A DNA stretch of 64,000 nt from Hyphomicrobiaceae bacterium (GTDB lineage: Bacteria > Pseudomonadota > Alphaproteobacteria > Rhizobiales > Hyphomicrobiaceae), in contig JANXWC010000185.1 of the NCBI GenBank assembly GCA_025351355.1, positions 1 through 64,000 on the forward strand, written 5' to 3'. Below, one piece after another: positions 18,316-26,000 of this stretch. A program made the translations under genes and the position numbers. Each line of letters begins with the position of its first letter. Position 1 is the stretch's first letter. The notes beneath the pieces are model-generated. The model saw nothing but the letters and a program-made list of their open reading frames with translations, had not been told where the DNA came from and did no database searches.

Positions 18316-19029
18316 CTAAAGCGGCAGACGAAATAACAGTTGGATCGTGAATGCACCGATGCTGGACAACAGCATCTGCAATGGAAATTTTAGCGAGAGA
18401 GCCTTCGCTGCCAGATATCCAATAGCCGAGCCGAGCAGGCCCGTACCAAGCATCCCCAAAAGGCCACCCCTCGGGAAGCCAATAACAAAGCTACTCAGCC
18501 ATCCCCCAACAATGCCAATCAGCAATACCGTCAACAATTCGATTGCGGGTTGGGACATCGTTGGGTTCGCGTCCCGCGAACCACTCCCCTTGATTGCCCG
18601 GGTGAGAGCGTCAACATCGCGACCAAAATGTTCGTGACTTACGTCGTGTTTCTGATGGTAGACCATCTCTCGGATGTCTTCGGGCAGATCTTCGCCGCGC
18701 GGCAGTTCGGCTCGTTCAATCAGGACTGGAACGACAGTGATGCCGCGCTTCAAGGCCGCGGCAATCTCCTCGCGAACGAAGTCACGATCGGCAGCACTCG
18801 TTCTATTCTTTAGTAAGCCCAACCATCGAGGACCTATCACAGCGAGGAATACCTCGGTATTCGCCAGCGCCCTCTCCAGTTCCTTGTCGAACCGTTGACC
18901 AGCCGACAGATTGTCGACGTCCATAAAAATTTGACCCGCGCCAAGCGAACTAACCAAGCGGTCGCGCAGTCGTGCAGCACCTGAGGCACTGTCTTCTCGA
19001 CGATAATTGATGAACACTCTTCCCGTCAT
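18316..19029 (-). CDS. TIR-domain protein with C-terminal membrane domain
   Basis: A 237-residue protein whose first 145 or so residues form a TIR domain: RVFINYRREDSASGAARLRD (beta A and box 1), IFMDVDNLSAG (box 2 region), RFDKELERALANTEVFLAVIGPRW with the glutamate expected for NAD cleavage, then an EIAAALKRGITVVPVLI strand. The last 75 residues hold two or three membrane helices with glycine-zipper character (GGWLSSFVIGF, GLLGSAIGYLAAKA), resembling YeaQ/GlsB-type modules. The ATG at 19029 starts directly at the TIR fold. Bacterial TIR proteins can be NADases in anti-phage defence; a membrane effector or sensor role is inference. It is bracketed by diverged direct repeats. Confidence 0.8.
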   Translation of the reverse strand: MTGRVFINYRREDSASGAARLRDRLVSSLGAGQIFMDVDNLSAGQRFDKELERALANTEVFLAVIGPRWLGLLKNRTSAADRDFVREEIAAALKRGITVVPVLIERAELPRGEDLPEDIREMVYHQKHDVSHEHFGRDVDALTRAIKGSGSRDANPTMSQPAIELLTVLLIGIVGGWLSSFVIGFPRGGLLGMLGTGLLGSAIGYLAAKALSLKFPLQMLLSSIGAFTIQLLFRLPL

Positions 19030-19465
19030 ACGAATAAATCCCCGGCAAAACGCATGGTCATATTCTCCCCCCAGAGGGATTGATCCAGGTGAAACCGTTA
19101 ACGCAAAATTTGTGATGTAGCGAGCACGTGGAGCGCATAGGACCCGGGTTGCGCAATGGTCGTATAATTTGCTGCCCTGCAAATTGTCCGGTCAGGGTCA
19201 GGACTCACCGGTCGCGAGTGCTTCCGCCACCGGCAGCAGGACCCCAGATAGCTGCCGAAATCTTGACCTTCGGCAGCTTACCCCCCACTTTCGAGCGTGC
19301 TCAAGGGCGACGGTGTTCGACGGCCTCGGGCCACAAGCTGTCGGAGACAGAATCGCTACAGCGAATATTTCATCTGATAGCCAAAGATATGAAAGCCGAC
19401 GCTTGCCGACACTTGCTGGTCGACAGAACGATGCTGTACTGTAACGGTGTTAATCATGTCAGATT
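19030..19465. other. Gene-free interval upstream of the TIR gene
   Basis: These 436 bases hold the second copy of the TIR-flanking repeat (19245-19312) and presumably the TIR promoter. No convincing gene or RNA was seen. Base composition is less GC-rich near 19080-19160 and 19370-19470 than in neighbouring genes. Confidence 0.4.
19245..19312. repeat. Diverged direct repeat flanking the TIR gene, copy 2
   Basis: Partner of the repeat at 18219-18290, same orientation. It carries an extra short palindrome around GCTGCCGAAATCTTGACCTTCGGCAGC, in which GCTGCCGAA and TTCGGCAGC are perfect inverted repeats. Confidence 0.6.
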
Positions 19466-20281: not shown

Positions 20282-22388
20282 CCAGCGCAATCAGTGCCAG
20301 CAGCCCGGCGAGAGCGGCAAGGCCCGTGAACATCGGCGTAACTTTCACACCTTTCGTCACGAAGGCTTCGCGGTCCTTGAGTCCGAGCCACCCATTGCCG
20401 GCGAGGACGCGTGCGTTCGACAACATCGAAATGCGGGGTATGTCGACGCCGGTCGATGACGACAGCAAGCCGTTGCCGCGGGTCCAGAACACGCCGCCGC
20501 CGGTAGCCTCCGCGATCGGTTTCATTTTCTCATCGGTGGCGACGACTTCGCTCATTTCCTTGGGATCGTCGATGCCGGCCAATGCGACGGCTGTGAGCCC
20601 GCCTGCGGTCGATTGCGTCTGCAGTTTGTAAAGGCCGGGCGTTTTTACATCCACTGCCGAGCGCCAAAAGCCTGGGCCGGCTTTCTCGAGCGTGATCGTT
20701 TGGTTTTGACCGCCCGGTTCCGACAGAATGACCGGTCGCACGCTTTCTTCCATGGTGCGCCGCTCGATGGTCAGCTTCAGACCTTTGGCACTCGCCAACA
20801 GCCGCTCTTCTTCGAGGTCTGGCTCTTTCATCAGCCAGTGCGCCAGCCGGCGCAGGAAATCGGTGTGCGGGCCGCCGCCGTCATAGCCGCGCGCCCACAA
20901 CCATGCCTGATCCGACGCCAGGAGTGCCACGCGCCCCTTGCCTTTGCGATCGAGCACCAGCAACGGCCGATCCTCGAGGCCGGTCATCAGATTGCGACCG
21001 CGTGCGGACTGCACGTCGACCTGCCGGAACCATTGGCCCCAAGTCGGTTGATTGGTATCTCCAGCAGCATTGGCGGAGCCTGCGAGGCCACGGGTGACGG
21101 GATGCTTCAATCCGTCGGGGCTGAGGTGTGCGCGGAATGCGCGTTCGATCAGGCGGCCGGTGGGTTGCGCCGGCAGTACTGGGGCGAGCAGTGTGTTGGC
21201 AATGCTTTGCGGCGTGGCGTAATCGTCGCCGGCGGCCACCAGCAAGGCGCCGCCGTTCTCCACGTACTTGGCGATGTTGTCGTAATAGAGCTGCTGCAGG
21301 ATGTTGTCGCGGTTCTGGTAGCGATCGAAGATGATCAGATCGAAATCCTTGATGCGATCGGAGAACAATTCGCGCGTCGGGAAGGCGATCAGCGACAGCT
21401 GGTTGATCGGCGTGCCGTCCTGCTTGAGCGGCGGCCGCAAAATGGTGAAGTGCACGAGATCGACAGCCGCATCCGACTTGAGCAGGTTGCGCCAGGTGCG
21501 CTCGCCGGCATGCGGTTCGCCGGAGACCAGCAGCACGCGCAGGTTCTCGCGCACGCCCTCTGCAACGACGACGACGCGGTTGTTGGCGGCGGTCAGTTCA
21601 CCCTCGACAGGCGACACCTCGATCTCGACGATGTTCTGCCCGGCATGCGGGAACGGCATGGGGATCATAACCGTGCGGCCGATGGCGGTGCGCACGGTGT
21701 CGTCGGGTTTGCCCTCGCGGCGGATTTTCAATGTCACTTGCGCGCTGCTGCCGGCCGGCGACTTGCCGTTCTCCAAGACGCGCGCTTCGATTTCGCGCGT
21801 CGAGCCGACGATGCCGTATTTCGGTGCCTTGACGATTTCGATGCGCCGATCGAATTCGCCGGGTTTGCCGGTCAGCAACGTATGCACCGGCGCGTCAAAG
21901 CCGAGAGCCGCCGCCGATGTCGGTGCATCGTGTACCTGACCGTCGGTGACCATGATCACGCCAGCGAGGCGGTCGGTGGGCGTATTGGCCAGTGCGCGAT
22001 TGAGATCGGCAAACAGGTTGGTGCCGGGCGGGCCATCACTGCCGGGCTTGGCTGATGAAACGAAGCGCACGTCGAGATTGGGAACTGCGGCCAATCGCGT
22101 TTCGAGTTCACGGCGGATAGCGGCGGTCTGTTCGGGCCGATCGGCCAGCGTCTGCGATGTGCTCTCGTCCATCACCACGACGGCGATATTGGCGAGGCTC
22201 TGTCGCTCCTCTTCGCGCAAGGTCGGATTGGCAATCGCCAGCAGCAGCGCACCGAGCGCCAGGCCGCGCAAAGCCGCACCGCGCGAACGGCGATAGAGGA
22301 GGAAACCGATCAGGGCAGCAGCGATTGCGATTGCCACCCAGAAGACGGGCGTCGGCAGAAGGGGAGACGTGTCGATGGACCAGGTCAT
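20259..22388 (-). CDS. Large membrane protein of the MoxR/DUF58/DUF4159 operon (glutamine amidotransferase-like fold)
   Basis: A 709-residue protein with two N-terminal helices (about 14-32 and 38-55), a von Willebrand-like start to the soluble part (IAVVVMDESTSQT), a central domain including LIIFDRYQNRD and YVENGGALLVAAGDDYA that resembles class-I glutamine amidotransferase-like folds, and a final helix near 685-704. This composition is typical of the last gene of Bat/aerotolerance-like operons of alphaproteobacteria. The function of the system is not established; envelope or protein-assembly quality control is often suggested. Its ATG overlaps the DUF559 stop (ATGA). Confidence 0.75.
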   Translation of the reverse strand: MTWSIDTSPLLPTPVFWVAIAIAAALIGFLLYRRSRGAALRGLALGALLLAIANPTLREEERQSLANIAVVVMDESTSQTLADRPEQTAAIRRELETRLAAVPNLDVRFVSSAKPGSDGPPGTNLFADLNRALANTPTDRLAGVIMVTDGQVHDAPTSAAALGFDAPVHTLLTGKPGEFDRRIEIVKAPKYGIVGSTREIEARVLENGKSPAGSSAQVTLKIRREGKPDDTVRTAIGRTVMIPMPFPHAGQNIVEIEVSPVEGELTAANNRVVVVAEGVRENLRVLLVSGEPHAGERTWRNLLKSDAAVDLVHFTILRPPLKQDGTPINQLSLIAFPTRELFSDRIKDFDLIIFDRYQNRDNILQQLYYDNIAKYVENGGALLVAAGDDYATPQSIANTLLAPVLPAQPTGRLIERAFRAHLSPDGLKHPVTRGLAGSANAAGDTNQPTWGQWFRQVDVQSARGRNLMTGLEDRPLLVLDRKGKGRVALLASDQAWLWARGYDGGGPHTDFLRRLAHWLMKEPDLEEERLLASAKGLKLTIERRTMEESVRPVILSEPGGQNQTITLEKAGPGFWRSAVDVKTPGLYKLQTQSTAGGLTAVALAGIDDPKEMSEVVATDEKMKPIAEATGGGVFWTRGNGLLSSSTGVDIPRISMLSNARVLAGNGWLGLKDREAFVTKGVKVTPMFTGLAALAGLLALIALAWWREGR

Positions 22389-23071
22389 GCGGGGGCTTTC
22401 GACGGGAGTACGTCACCGGCGGTTGCGGCGGCAGCCCCCCCACCCCAACCCTCCCCCACAAGGGGGGAGGGAGTCTGGCTGGTAATTGCGGCTGGGTCGG
22501 AGCATGCCACAACCGGCGAACTGGTGTCGGTCTGCGGCGGTCTCGAACGCCGACGGAATTCCCCTCCCCCTTGTGGGGAGGGGTTAGGGGTGGGGGTACC
22601 GCGCATGGCAGCGCTCGCTTGGCGACGTGCCAAACGCGCCAGGGCTTTAGAGCTAAATGGTGGAGGAGTGATGATGTTATCGACCATGACACTGCTGTCA
22701 GCGGGAAGCGTACCTGTAGCTGCCATGACAGAGATCATGATCCCCTCGAGATTCGTCAGAACTTCGGTGTTCGAAAAGCGAAGAACGCGATAGCCTTGAG
22801 TTCCAAGCCACGCCGTTCGCTCCGCATCTCGGGCAAGACCATCCGGCTCGCCATGCTGTCCGCCATCGACTTCGATCACGATCTTGCGGGTGTGCTCACA
22901 GAAGTCGGCGACGAAGCGGCCGATAGGCGCTTGACGGCGAAAGTGAATGCCAACGTCGGCGTTCAACGCACGCAGCGCGCGCCAAAGCTTCCGTTCCGCT
23001 GGCGTCATGTTGCGGCGTAGGTCCCGGGCAATGGCGACGGATTGCTCGATAGATCCTTGATGCCCCATCAT
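22385..23071 (-). CDS. DUF559 endonuclease-fold protein with repeat-derived tail
   Basis: The first 120 or so residues are a DUF559 (Vsr-like, restriction-endonuclease fold) domain: ARDLRRNMTPAERKLWRALR, FRRQAPIGRFVADFC, KIVIEVDGGQHGEPDG and YRVLRFSNTEVLTNLEGI. D, E and Q-H residues of the putative nuclease site are present. From about residue 158 the protein is translated palindromic repeat (TPTPNPSPQGGGE, SPLVGEGWGGG). The start is ATG 23071, overlapping the DUF4159 stop (TGATG); an in-frame GTG at 23074 is an alternative. The stop overlaps the next gene's ATG. It interrupts an otherwise standard operon, so it is probably a later insertion. Confidence 0.8.
   Translation of the reverse strand: MMGHQGSIEQSVAIARDLRRNMTPAERKLWRALRALNADVGIHFRRQAPIGRFVADFCEHTRKIVIEVDGGQHGEPDGLARDAERTAWLGTQGYRVLRFSNTEVLTNLEGIMISVMAATGTLPADSSVMVDNIITPPPFSSKALARLARRQASAAMRGTPTPNPSPQGGGEFRRRSRPPQTDTSSPVVACSDPAAITSQTPSPLVGEGWGGGAAAATAGDVLPSKAPA
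22434..22596. repeat. GC-rich palindromic repeat inside the DUF559 tail
   Basis: Left arm 22434-22471 (CCCACCCCAACCCTCCCCC and on) and right arm 22561-22596 (CCCCTCCCCCTTGTGGGGAG and on) are near-complementary, each also containing its own small palindrome CCCC-ACAAG-GGGG. The 89-nt centre is GC-rich and non-palindromic. This is the alphaproteobacterial CTCCCCCTTGTGGGGAG-type intergenic repeat, here read in frame as protein. Confidence 0.85.
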
Positions 23072-26000
23072 CACTGCCCCAGCCTTTCCAGCAGCGCGGG
23101 GACGTGGACCTGGTCGGCTTTATAGTTGCCGGTGAGGGCGTACATGGCGATGTTGACGCCGGTGCGGAAGGCCATTTCGCGTTGGCGTTCGCCGCCGGGC
23201 ACCACGGGGTAGATGGGTTGATTGCGCGCATCCAATGCCCAGGCCGAGGCAAAATCATTCGACGTAACGAGAATGGAGGAGACGCCATCGACGCGGCGGG
23301 CCTGGCGGCCCTGACCAGTGTCGGACGGCGCTTCGGCCTCGACCCAGAGTTGGCCATTGTCGTAGCGGCCGGGGAAGGTGCGCAACAGATAGAACGACTT
23401 GGTCAGTACGTGCGTTTCCGGCACCGGCTCAAGCCTGGGCAGATCGAGGTTGCCGAGCAACCGTTGCAGCGGCGTGCCGCCTTGCGATTGGGGGCCGAAG
23501 CCCGGTGGCAAGGCCGTGCCAGCGTCGCGCGTATCAAAGATAATCATGCCGCCGTTTTTCATGTAGGCGTCGATCTTGGCGAGGGTGGCTTCCGGCAAAG
23601 CCTGCGCGTTGGCGAGTACCGGCCAGTAAAGCACCGGATAAAACGTGATTTCGTCGGTGGCGATATTGATGGCGGTGGGCTCGCCGGGGTCGACGGCAGT
23701 CTTGGCGCTGAGGAAGGCTGCGAGGCCGCGCAGGCCCTGTTGGCTGGTCTGGTCGGTGGCAGCGTCGCCGGACAATACATAGCCGAAGGTGGCTTTGCTG
23801 GTTGCCGCTATTGCACGGCCGTCTGGGCCAGCTGGCACAATTTGCGCTGGCCGGGGTGGCGGCAGGTTGAGCCCGCCGCGTCCCTGTGGAACTTGCGGAA
23901 AGAACTGCGCGAGTTTGGTGGCAGCCCCGTTGCCAGTGACGCAATTCGAACACCCCCTCATCCGGGATTCGCCGACCTTCTCCCCAAGGGGAGAAGGCAA
24001 CAACTCGGACGGCGGTGGGTTTGTCCTCTCCCCTTGGGGAGGGGATGTCCGATGGTCAAGTGAGGGGGCCTTTGACGGCGGTAAAATTCCCATTGGTGCA
24101 TTCGAGCGTACTGCAGCAGCCCCCTCACCCCAACCCTCCCACGCACCGGGGGAGGGGGTTCCGGCGACGGCTGAATTGCCTGAGGTGTCCAGCATTGCGG
24201 ACAGGAGGCCAGCGACGAGAGCAATCATCGCGGCACGCTGAATGGCTTTGCGACCGAAGGAGCCGAAGGCGCCGGAGAGCCAGAGGGTGGCGATGATGTC
24301 GATCAGCAGCAAGGCGAGTCCCAGGGATAACAGGTGAGGTTTCAAAGGGCGCGCCGAGGTACCTTCCAGGGCGCGTCGTTCGAAGCCGGACGGCAGCGGC
24401 GGGAGCGGCGCCAGCACGGTTTTTGCCGACAGCAGATTGAGTGAGCGCGGATTGGCCGATGGCCCATAAAGGCCGGGCGGGTGTTCGGCGGACGGTTTGG
24501 CATCGGCCAACTGGCGGGCGGTAATGGCCTGGGCTGTCGGAGGCGGAGACTTCAGAATGCCGTAACCGTCGAGGACCTGAGTGGGGGCGAGAACCTCGGC
24601 GGTTTCGGCCGCGACCTGATCGGCCGAGGTCGTGGCTATCGGATCATCGGCGGTGACATCGCCGACGCCGCCAGGTTTACCAAGCGTGGCAATGCGCCGG
24701 AGCATCTCGACGAACAGGCCCGATAGCGGCAGGTTCGACCAGTCCGAGTTGGCGGTGATGTGGAACAGCACGAGTTGCCCTTCGCCACGCTTGGCGCTGG
24801 TGACCAGCGGCGTGCCATCTTTCAGGCGCGCCAGGATTTTGGTCTCGTTGCCAAGCCGCGCCGGATCGGCCAGCACCTGCCGGTTGACCAGCACATCCGG
24901 CTGCACTGCCAAACCGGCAAACAGGCTGTCGTCAGTGAACGGCGCCAGCGGTTGTGGCGTTGACCACGACAGCGCACCACCCAAAGCTCGACCGCCCGAA
25001 CGGAGCGGCGCCGGCAACAGGTCGTCGCCGCCATTTTCGAGGCGTGGGCCGGCAAAGCGTACGAGCACGCCGCCTTTGCGCACCCAGGCATTGACCTTGT
25101 CGTGAATGTCCTTCGGCAGGATGCCAATGTCGGCCAGCGTGAGAACGGAAATGTTGCCTTTGATCAGGTTGGTGATCGACTTGGATAAGTTGGCATCCTC
25201 GTCGCGGGCGATCTCGGCGAACGGTTTGAGTGCGCGCTCGATATAGTACAGCGGCGCCAGCAACGGCTGCGCCTGCTCGCGGCTGGCACCAGAAAGGATA
25301 CCGATGCGGTGCCATTGGGCGCGGGCATCGAGTAGATGCACTGCACCCGCCGAGCGTTCACCGGCGATCTCGATCCGCGCGACCTGGTTGCGGAGTTCCA
25401 GCGGCAAGTCGAAGCGCACGTCGGCACGATTGCCGGCAGTTGACAGCGTAAACGTTGTCTCACCCAGGCGCTGGCCACGCGCACTCAGGGCATGGATCAG
25501 GCCGCGCCGTTCCGGGCCCGCCGTGCGCATGACATGGGCTTCGAGCCGGCCGCCCTGACCGAGGCTGGCCGCTACACCGACGGGTTCCTGGTTCGGGCCG
25601 TTCTCGATGACGATTGTCGATCCACCGTTCGCGAAGGACTTCAACCGCTCGGCGAACGCGGCTGTTTTGCCGTCGTGATCGACGCCGTCGGTAAGCCAGA
25701 TGATGGAAGCGTCCGGCTGCCCGTTCAAGGTCTCGCCGAGCGCATCAGCGGCGCGCGCGCGATCCGGCGCGAACGGCTGCGGTTCCAGTGCCGCCATCGT
25801 GGAGCGAGCCTGCACCGGCGCTTCGATGCGATAGGCCGGCGTCTTGGATGTGAAAGCCATCGGCGCGATGACCAGCGCCCGCCCTTGGGCCTCGGCCTCG
25901 GTGATGCGCCGCTCGATTTCGGCGCGGCGGTCGGACCACCGCGCGGCCGACGCCCAGCCGTTGTCGATAGCCAGGACAATAGGGCCTTTGCCAGCGAGCG

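Follow-up and report, generated by a model that had tools for sequence, protein, structure and literature searches.

The stretch analyzed here, called the window, comprises 64,000 nt of contig JANXWC010000185.1 from a Hyphomicrobiaceae bacterium (GCA_025351355.1). It carries a gene for a DUF559 endonuclease, set between two larger genes of an operon (Table 1). An earlier note on this DNA had described stop/start overlaps with both neighbors, and the coordinates agreed with that description. On the minus strand, the TGA of the upstream DUF4159/BatA-type gene (23073–23071) and the ATG of the DUF559 gene (23071–23069) form a TGATG overlap. At the other end, the DUF559 stop codon (22387–22385) forms an ATGA overlap with the start of the downstream gene (22388–22386). 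The note had also described the C-terminal third of the protein as a translated palindromic repeat, and the last ~70 of the 228 residues (31%) were indeed repeat-coded. The inverted pair responsible (22436–22472 and 22560–22596) has 37-nt arms that are 81% complementary and lie 87 nt apart inside the open reading frame (ORF). We refer to such palindromes as repetitive extragenic palindromes (REPs).

The related palindromes reported for the upstream neighbor were found as three hairpins, at 23976–23997, 24024–24045, and 24113–24159. The REP stretch at 23950–24165 is missing from the orthologues of two congeners (genomes G002 and G004) and is therefore an in-frame insert. An insert of this kind in a conserved BatA/DUF4159 protein resembles the Rickettsia palindromic elements found in ORFs. 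The window copy is less symmetrical than most DUF559 loci, its upstream REPs lying ~0.9 kb away in the neighboring gene. An Rfam search of the region gave no match.

Table 1. Genes and REPs of the window, and GIY-YIG loci of the same survey.
Feature	Position	Strand	Remarks
DUF559 (Vsr/EDxHD-type) endonuclease gene	22385–23071	minus	Begins with ATG at 23071; encodes 228 aa, with catalytic-type residues intact
Upstream operon gene, BatA N-terminal and DUF4159, 1064 aa	23071–26265	minus	Overlaps the DUF559 start with its stop codon
Downstream operon gene, 709 aa	20259–22388	minus	No Pfam family above threshold
Inverted REP dimer with CCCCCACCCC tail and CCCTCCCC-loop-GGGGAGGG hairpins (22449–22471 and 22561–22583)	22434–22596		Read as the DUF559 C-terminal ~70 aa
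Second inverted REP dimer, with a CCCCCTCATCC tail and hairpins of CCTTCTCCCC type	23950–24063		In frame inside the upstream gene
Single REP (CCCCCTCACCCCAACCCTCCC...)	24113–24159		In frame inside the upstream gene; part of the insert absent from the G002 and G004 orthologues
GIY-YIG loci	L131–L158 (e.g., L131, L143, L145, L153)		CGTC-class REPs around them

The surroundings of DUF559 genes were surveyed at loci picked by hidden Markov model or BLAST score, blind to repeats. The hairpin detector required a C/T-rich 5′ arm and a G/A-rich 3′ arm (CCCTCACCC..CCCTCTCCC-loop-GGGAGAGGG class), within 250–300 bp in the sub-surveys. A hairpin adjoined the gene in 48/52 loci of the order and in 57/58 loci of the class and phylum. 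A separate genome scan across many phyla, run with an alignment of a more closely related set (A4) than the 41-row alignment (A3) used for the structural model below, gave 75 of 80 named loci. Named genomes with the association include members of Chloroflexota, Nitrospirota, Desulfobacterota, Spirochaetes, Elusimicrobia, and Legionella. Pooling the loci that had 300 bp of sequence on either flank gave 177; of these, 169 had a hairpin within 300 bp, and 112 had one on each side. Hairpin density reached 8.1/kb at 0–100 bp from the DUF559 domain and fell to 0.10/kb at 1–2 kb. The background was 0.06–0.08/kb in 384 kb of contigs from the same genomes, and the first 100 bp beside DUF559 thus exceed it ~100 times. 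A CCCTC-type hairpin was present in 1.6% of random stretches and in none of 25 GIY-YIG nuclease loci from the same 60 genomes. The comparison establishes the association that the earlier note had suggested, and nearly all DUF559 copies elsewhere adjoin repeats. The window genome itself has three DUF559 genes with REPs on both sides, the window copy having those of one side only within the upstream gene. The other two, at L001 (between two metH ORFs) and L003, are flanked by palindromes that differ in sequence type from one locus to the other.

The repeat unit has a common layout and a preferred polarity. It consists of a tail, CCCTCA(C/T)C or CCCCACCC, then either a short spacer or an additional small hairpin, and last the main hairpin, e.g., CCCTCTCCCC-loop-GGGGAGAGGG. 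Among loci in which orientation could be called, the nearest upstream tail pointed toward the gene in 88 cases and away from it in 15 (binomial p about 1e-13); the downstream figures were 93 and 13 (p about 5e-16). Comparison of the flanks showed matched ends, since the two hairpins nearest to the gene were exact inverted copies in 19/119 loci, against 0.08 expected (permutation p ≤ 1e-4). The type of REP arm follows the DUF559 tree: it changes 42 times on the tree, and at least 61 times in each of 300 shuffles of the labels. A two-state version of this test gave 23 changes (at least 40 in shuffles), and the 65 named loci alone gave 14 (at least 16). The downstream REP starts a median of 39 nt past the DUF559 domain. 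It is entered by 93 of 145 DUF559 ORFs, 83 of which pass through it fully, so a tail derived from the repeat is what members of the family normally have. For annotators, this means that what looks like a protein tail, such as PSPLVGEGWGGG, is in many cases a translated repeat.

Comparison of relatives revealed both empty and filled sites. Empty versions of the window junction, looked for on the suggestion of the earlier note, occur in more than 20 relatives; in most relatives, the two operon genes lie −3 to 17 nt from each other. In the window genome, 683 nt are inserted at this position. G002 has a 481-nt insert with an orthologous DUF559 gene, a repeat, a REP-made tail, and the same ATGA overlap; the relative that shares the gene here thus shares the repeat. 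Of the genomes lacking DUF559, the congener G004 has 106 nt at the junction and G006 has a lone REP. A second junction, metH1/metH2, spans 86–108 nt in empty genomes. It is occupied by DUF559 units with differing REP types in G000, G001, G002, and G010, and loci L007 and L013 lie there as well. Entry into an operon with translation kept intact, also proposed in the note, holds for the window genome and G002, and is in line with the read-through into downstream REPs described above. REPs are often open in a useful frame. The 3′ end of the gene and the neighboring ORFs therefore continue across them, and the unit can enter an operon without harm to it.

Comparison also tied the number of dispersed REPs to the presence of the gene, which is patchy (31/60 relatives). 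REPs were counted in the 60 relatives by exact patterns for three arm types, with the reversed pattern as a control; covariance-model counts reach a ceiling at 111 candidates scored in a genome and were therefore not used for this purpose, although the two counts agree. The median was 34 REPs per genome with DUF559 (n = 31) and 2 without it (n = 29; Mann–Whitney p = 6e-6), and the reversed pattern gave counts near 0. The partial rank correlation between REP number and DUF559 number, after genome size and GIY-YIG number, was 0.62. Phylogeny is only partly accounted for in these tests. Contrasts within genera had the expected direction in five of six genera.

The window protein matched Pfam DUF559 (PF04480) with E = 2.2e-32 and 111.6 bits (gathering cut-off 20.6) over profile positions 4–105 of 109. 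Its only Pfam matches were to DUF559/REase_MTES_1575, and no Vsr family was matched in that search. No methyltransferase gene is an immediate neighbor of the DUF559 gene in the window. An AlphaFold model built from the 41 sequences of A3 had a predicted local distance difference test (pLDDT) score of 91.3. Foldseek matched it to 3hrl (Neisseria NGO0050; E = 2.5e-6), 3r3p (catalytic domain of I-Bth0305I; E = 5e-5), and 1vsr (Vsr; E = 5.5e-3). In a sequence profile search with hmmsearch, 3hrl (E = 1.5e-36) and 3r3p (E = 2e-5) were recovered, and weak matches, at E 0.1 to 0.9, were not significant. According to the model, DUF559 has the fold shared by Vsr and by I-Bth0305I, a homing endonuclease of the EDxHD type. 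Residues E23, W27, D53, F54, E64xDGxxH70, D79, R82, and R95 (A3 numbering) are invariant across the 41 sequences and intact in the window protein.

In its organization, the DUF559 unit resembles the REPtrons of the REP-associated tyrosine transposases (RAYT/TnpA-REP). These have a small nuclease gene between inverted REPs, which carry an unpaired tag on one end. They also have REPs and inverted dimers (REPINs) in dispersed form, several REP types each with its own gene, and REPs that may outlast the gene (PMC3733652, PMC3116915). The flanking of the gene by REPs, which characterizes REPtrons, recurs at DUF559 on at least one side in 169/177 loci and on both in 112/177. The enzymes, however, are not homologous. 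RAYT is an HUH tyrosine transposase of the IS200/IS605 kind that acts on single strands, whereas DUF559 is a predicted hydrolytic nuclease of the Vsr/EDxHD fold, and its tag is one of the two tails given above instead of GTAG. Membership in RAYT was rejected because there is neither an HUH (Y1_Tnp) domain nor a GTAG tag. I-Bth0305I shares a homologous catalytic domain and a mobile-gene lifestyle with DUF559. It differs in being intron-encoded, in having additional regions for DNA binding, and in its target of ~60 bp (PMC3943268), whereas DUF559 here is a bare domain with no intron and with REPs around it. Vsr has the same fold (1vsr), and the Caulobacter VsrA is itself a DUF559 protein (PMC12907096); the REP framing and the membership in Pfam DUF559 set DUF559 apart from Vsr.

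Judging from these sequence comparisons, we consider it probable, with appreciable doubt, that a DUF559 gene and its REPs form one selfish, REPtron-like unit. The nuclease would be the mobilizer of its cognate REP, analogous but unrelated to RAYT. The gene typically sits between matched inverted REPs with their CCCTCA tails directed inward, and the unit inserts between genes. We infer steps of recognition, cleavage, and copying. The nuclease would recognize its cognate REP through the tail and the hairpin, perhaps an extruded one, and would cut at or beside it. Host break repair or replication could then copy the REP or an inverted dimer of it to another place and, in rare cases, the entire unit with the gene. 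The dispersed REPs would be non-autonomous copies.

Several results weigh against this proposal. The comparative data only partly separate a nuclease that mobilizes REPs from a nuclease gene that lands in them. Neither a target-site duplication nor a precise excision product was identified at the compared sites. One of the contrasts within genera was reversed (28 REPs in G029 vs. 49 in G006). Between 12 and 16 of the 29 genomes without DUF559 keep REPs (e.g., G006 and G039); REP upkeep thus does not require the gene. G006, G039, and G024 have 24–60 REPs, and a DUF559 gene was not found in them; they have possibly lost it recently. For the REPs of such genomes, we assume a gene loss like that of RAYT, by analogy with the GTAG REPs that are kept in genomes where RAYT was lost (PMC3733652). 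A methylation-linked repair role has moreover been assigned to Caulobacter VsrA (PMC12907096).

The main rival is a free-standing homing endonuclease that targets the REP, its gene inserting between existing harmless REPs that something else has spread. We find this unlikely, yet it deserves serious attention: among solved mobile relatives, the homing endonuclease I-Bth0305I is the closest, the metH junction is occupied in several genomes by units with differing REP types, and GIY-YIG, which is a homing nuclease fold as well, repeats the pattern with another class of REPs. None of the dependence of arm type on the nuclease tree, the matched inverted copies at the flanks, and the dependence of REP number on the gene is strongly predicted by such homing. 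In addition, the gene in the window entered a junction that is REP-free in most relatives. A role of DUF559 as a host-kept, Vsr-like nuclease for mismatch or hairpin repair, with ordinary intergenic or terminator repeats alongside, appears improbable to us. The ~100 times enrichment of REPs at DUF559, which GIY-YIG loci and random sites in those genomes do not show, speaks against it, as do the patchy presence, the empty sites, and the variable locations, which are unlike those of a host repair gene. In its favor are the similarity to the Vsr fold and the functional link of Caulobacter VsrA to a cytosine methyltransferase and the DNA damage response (PMC12907096). The transcription-terminator explanation of the hairpins was ruled out, as they are not enriched at GIY-YIG or random genes. 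The repeats are dispersed in many copies, and in a genome dense in palindromes any intergenic gene would have some nearby; the background, random-stretch, and GIY-YIG controls rule out chance repeat density, and we give coincidence virtually no weight.

The same genomes offer a parallel. Small GIY-YIG genes adjoin CGTC-tagged REPs (e.g., CGTCATTCCGGCGAAAGCCGGAATCCA) within 250 bp in 19 of 25 loci, on both sides in 14. The CGTC detector is looser, with an 18% background, and the claim rests on the both-side matches and on canonical motifs seen visually. With this loose detector, the CGTC motif near DUF559 was not above background (24/103 vs. 18%). The survey of 2013 that defined the CGTC REPs, a class of Alphaproteobacteria, found no associated transposase gene (PMC3733652). 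CGTC REPs, Rickettsia palindromic elements, Box C, and RIMEs resemble the DUF559 REPs in being short, GC-rich palindromes, mostly inverted dimers and sometimes located in ORFs. CGTC REPs differ in their tag and stem and in their partnership here with GIY-YIG genes. Assignment of the DUF559 hairpins to the CGTC super-family (CGTC/TGTC/CCTC tag, AT stem start, CCA end) was rejected, as their arms are CTC(T)CCC.

REP-type palindromes are among the commonest bacterial repeats, and we know of no driver for the non-GTAG REP classes. Its near-constant place beside matched palindromes makes DUF559 the leading candidate to date for spreading one large class of them. More tentatively, and with the balance somewhat against it, each REP class may be served by an unrelated nuclease (RAYT/HUH for GTAG, DUF559 EDxHD/Vsr for CCCTCA, and GIY-YIG for CGTC). 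As DUF559 and GIY-YIG have homing-endonuclease folds, REP spread would then use copying driven by double-strand breaks. If true, this would be a previously undescribed mode of transposition without a transposase. The analysis names DUF559 and GIY-YIG nucleases as testable, class-specific candidates for REP spread, and it supplies a hypothesis of function for a widespread domain of unknown function. Our literature search returned no report of a DUF559–REP or GIY-YIG–REP link; subscription papers and preprints lay largely outside its coverage, and the novelty is therefore provisional.

A model case is available in Escherichia coli K-12, where the DUF559 gene ycjD (1351407–1351760 of NC_000913.3; locus L307, 1350500–1356500) lies between sapF and fabI beside such repeats. 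The gene ends in REP-like codons (CGGTCACCCTCTCCCTGA), and 166 nt downstream of it there is a TCCCCTCGCCCCTCTGGGGAGAGGGTTAGGGTGAGGGGA unit. Places resembling this unit number a median of 19 per E. coli genome. The unit, found in E. coli by sequence only, seems to resemble the E. coli Box C repeat. The CCCTC REPs as a whole may be identical with Box C or with the rhizobial RIMEs.

On plasmid pAQ6 of Picosynechococcus sp. PCC 7002 (L303, 1300–2030), a DUF559 gene is flanked by other palindromes, of CCCCTAGCCCCCGAATCGGGGG type, which suggests a further REP dialect. Within the window, an ORF on the minus strand at 18316–19182, 2 kb off the operon, appears by eye to be TIR domain-like (VFINYRRED...).
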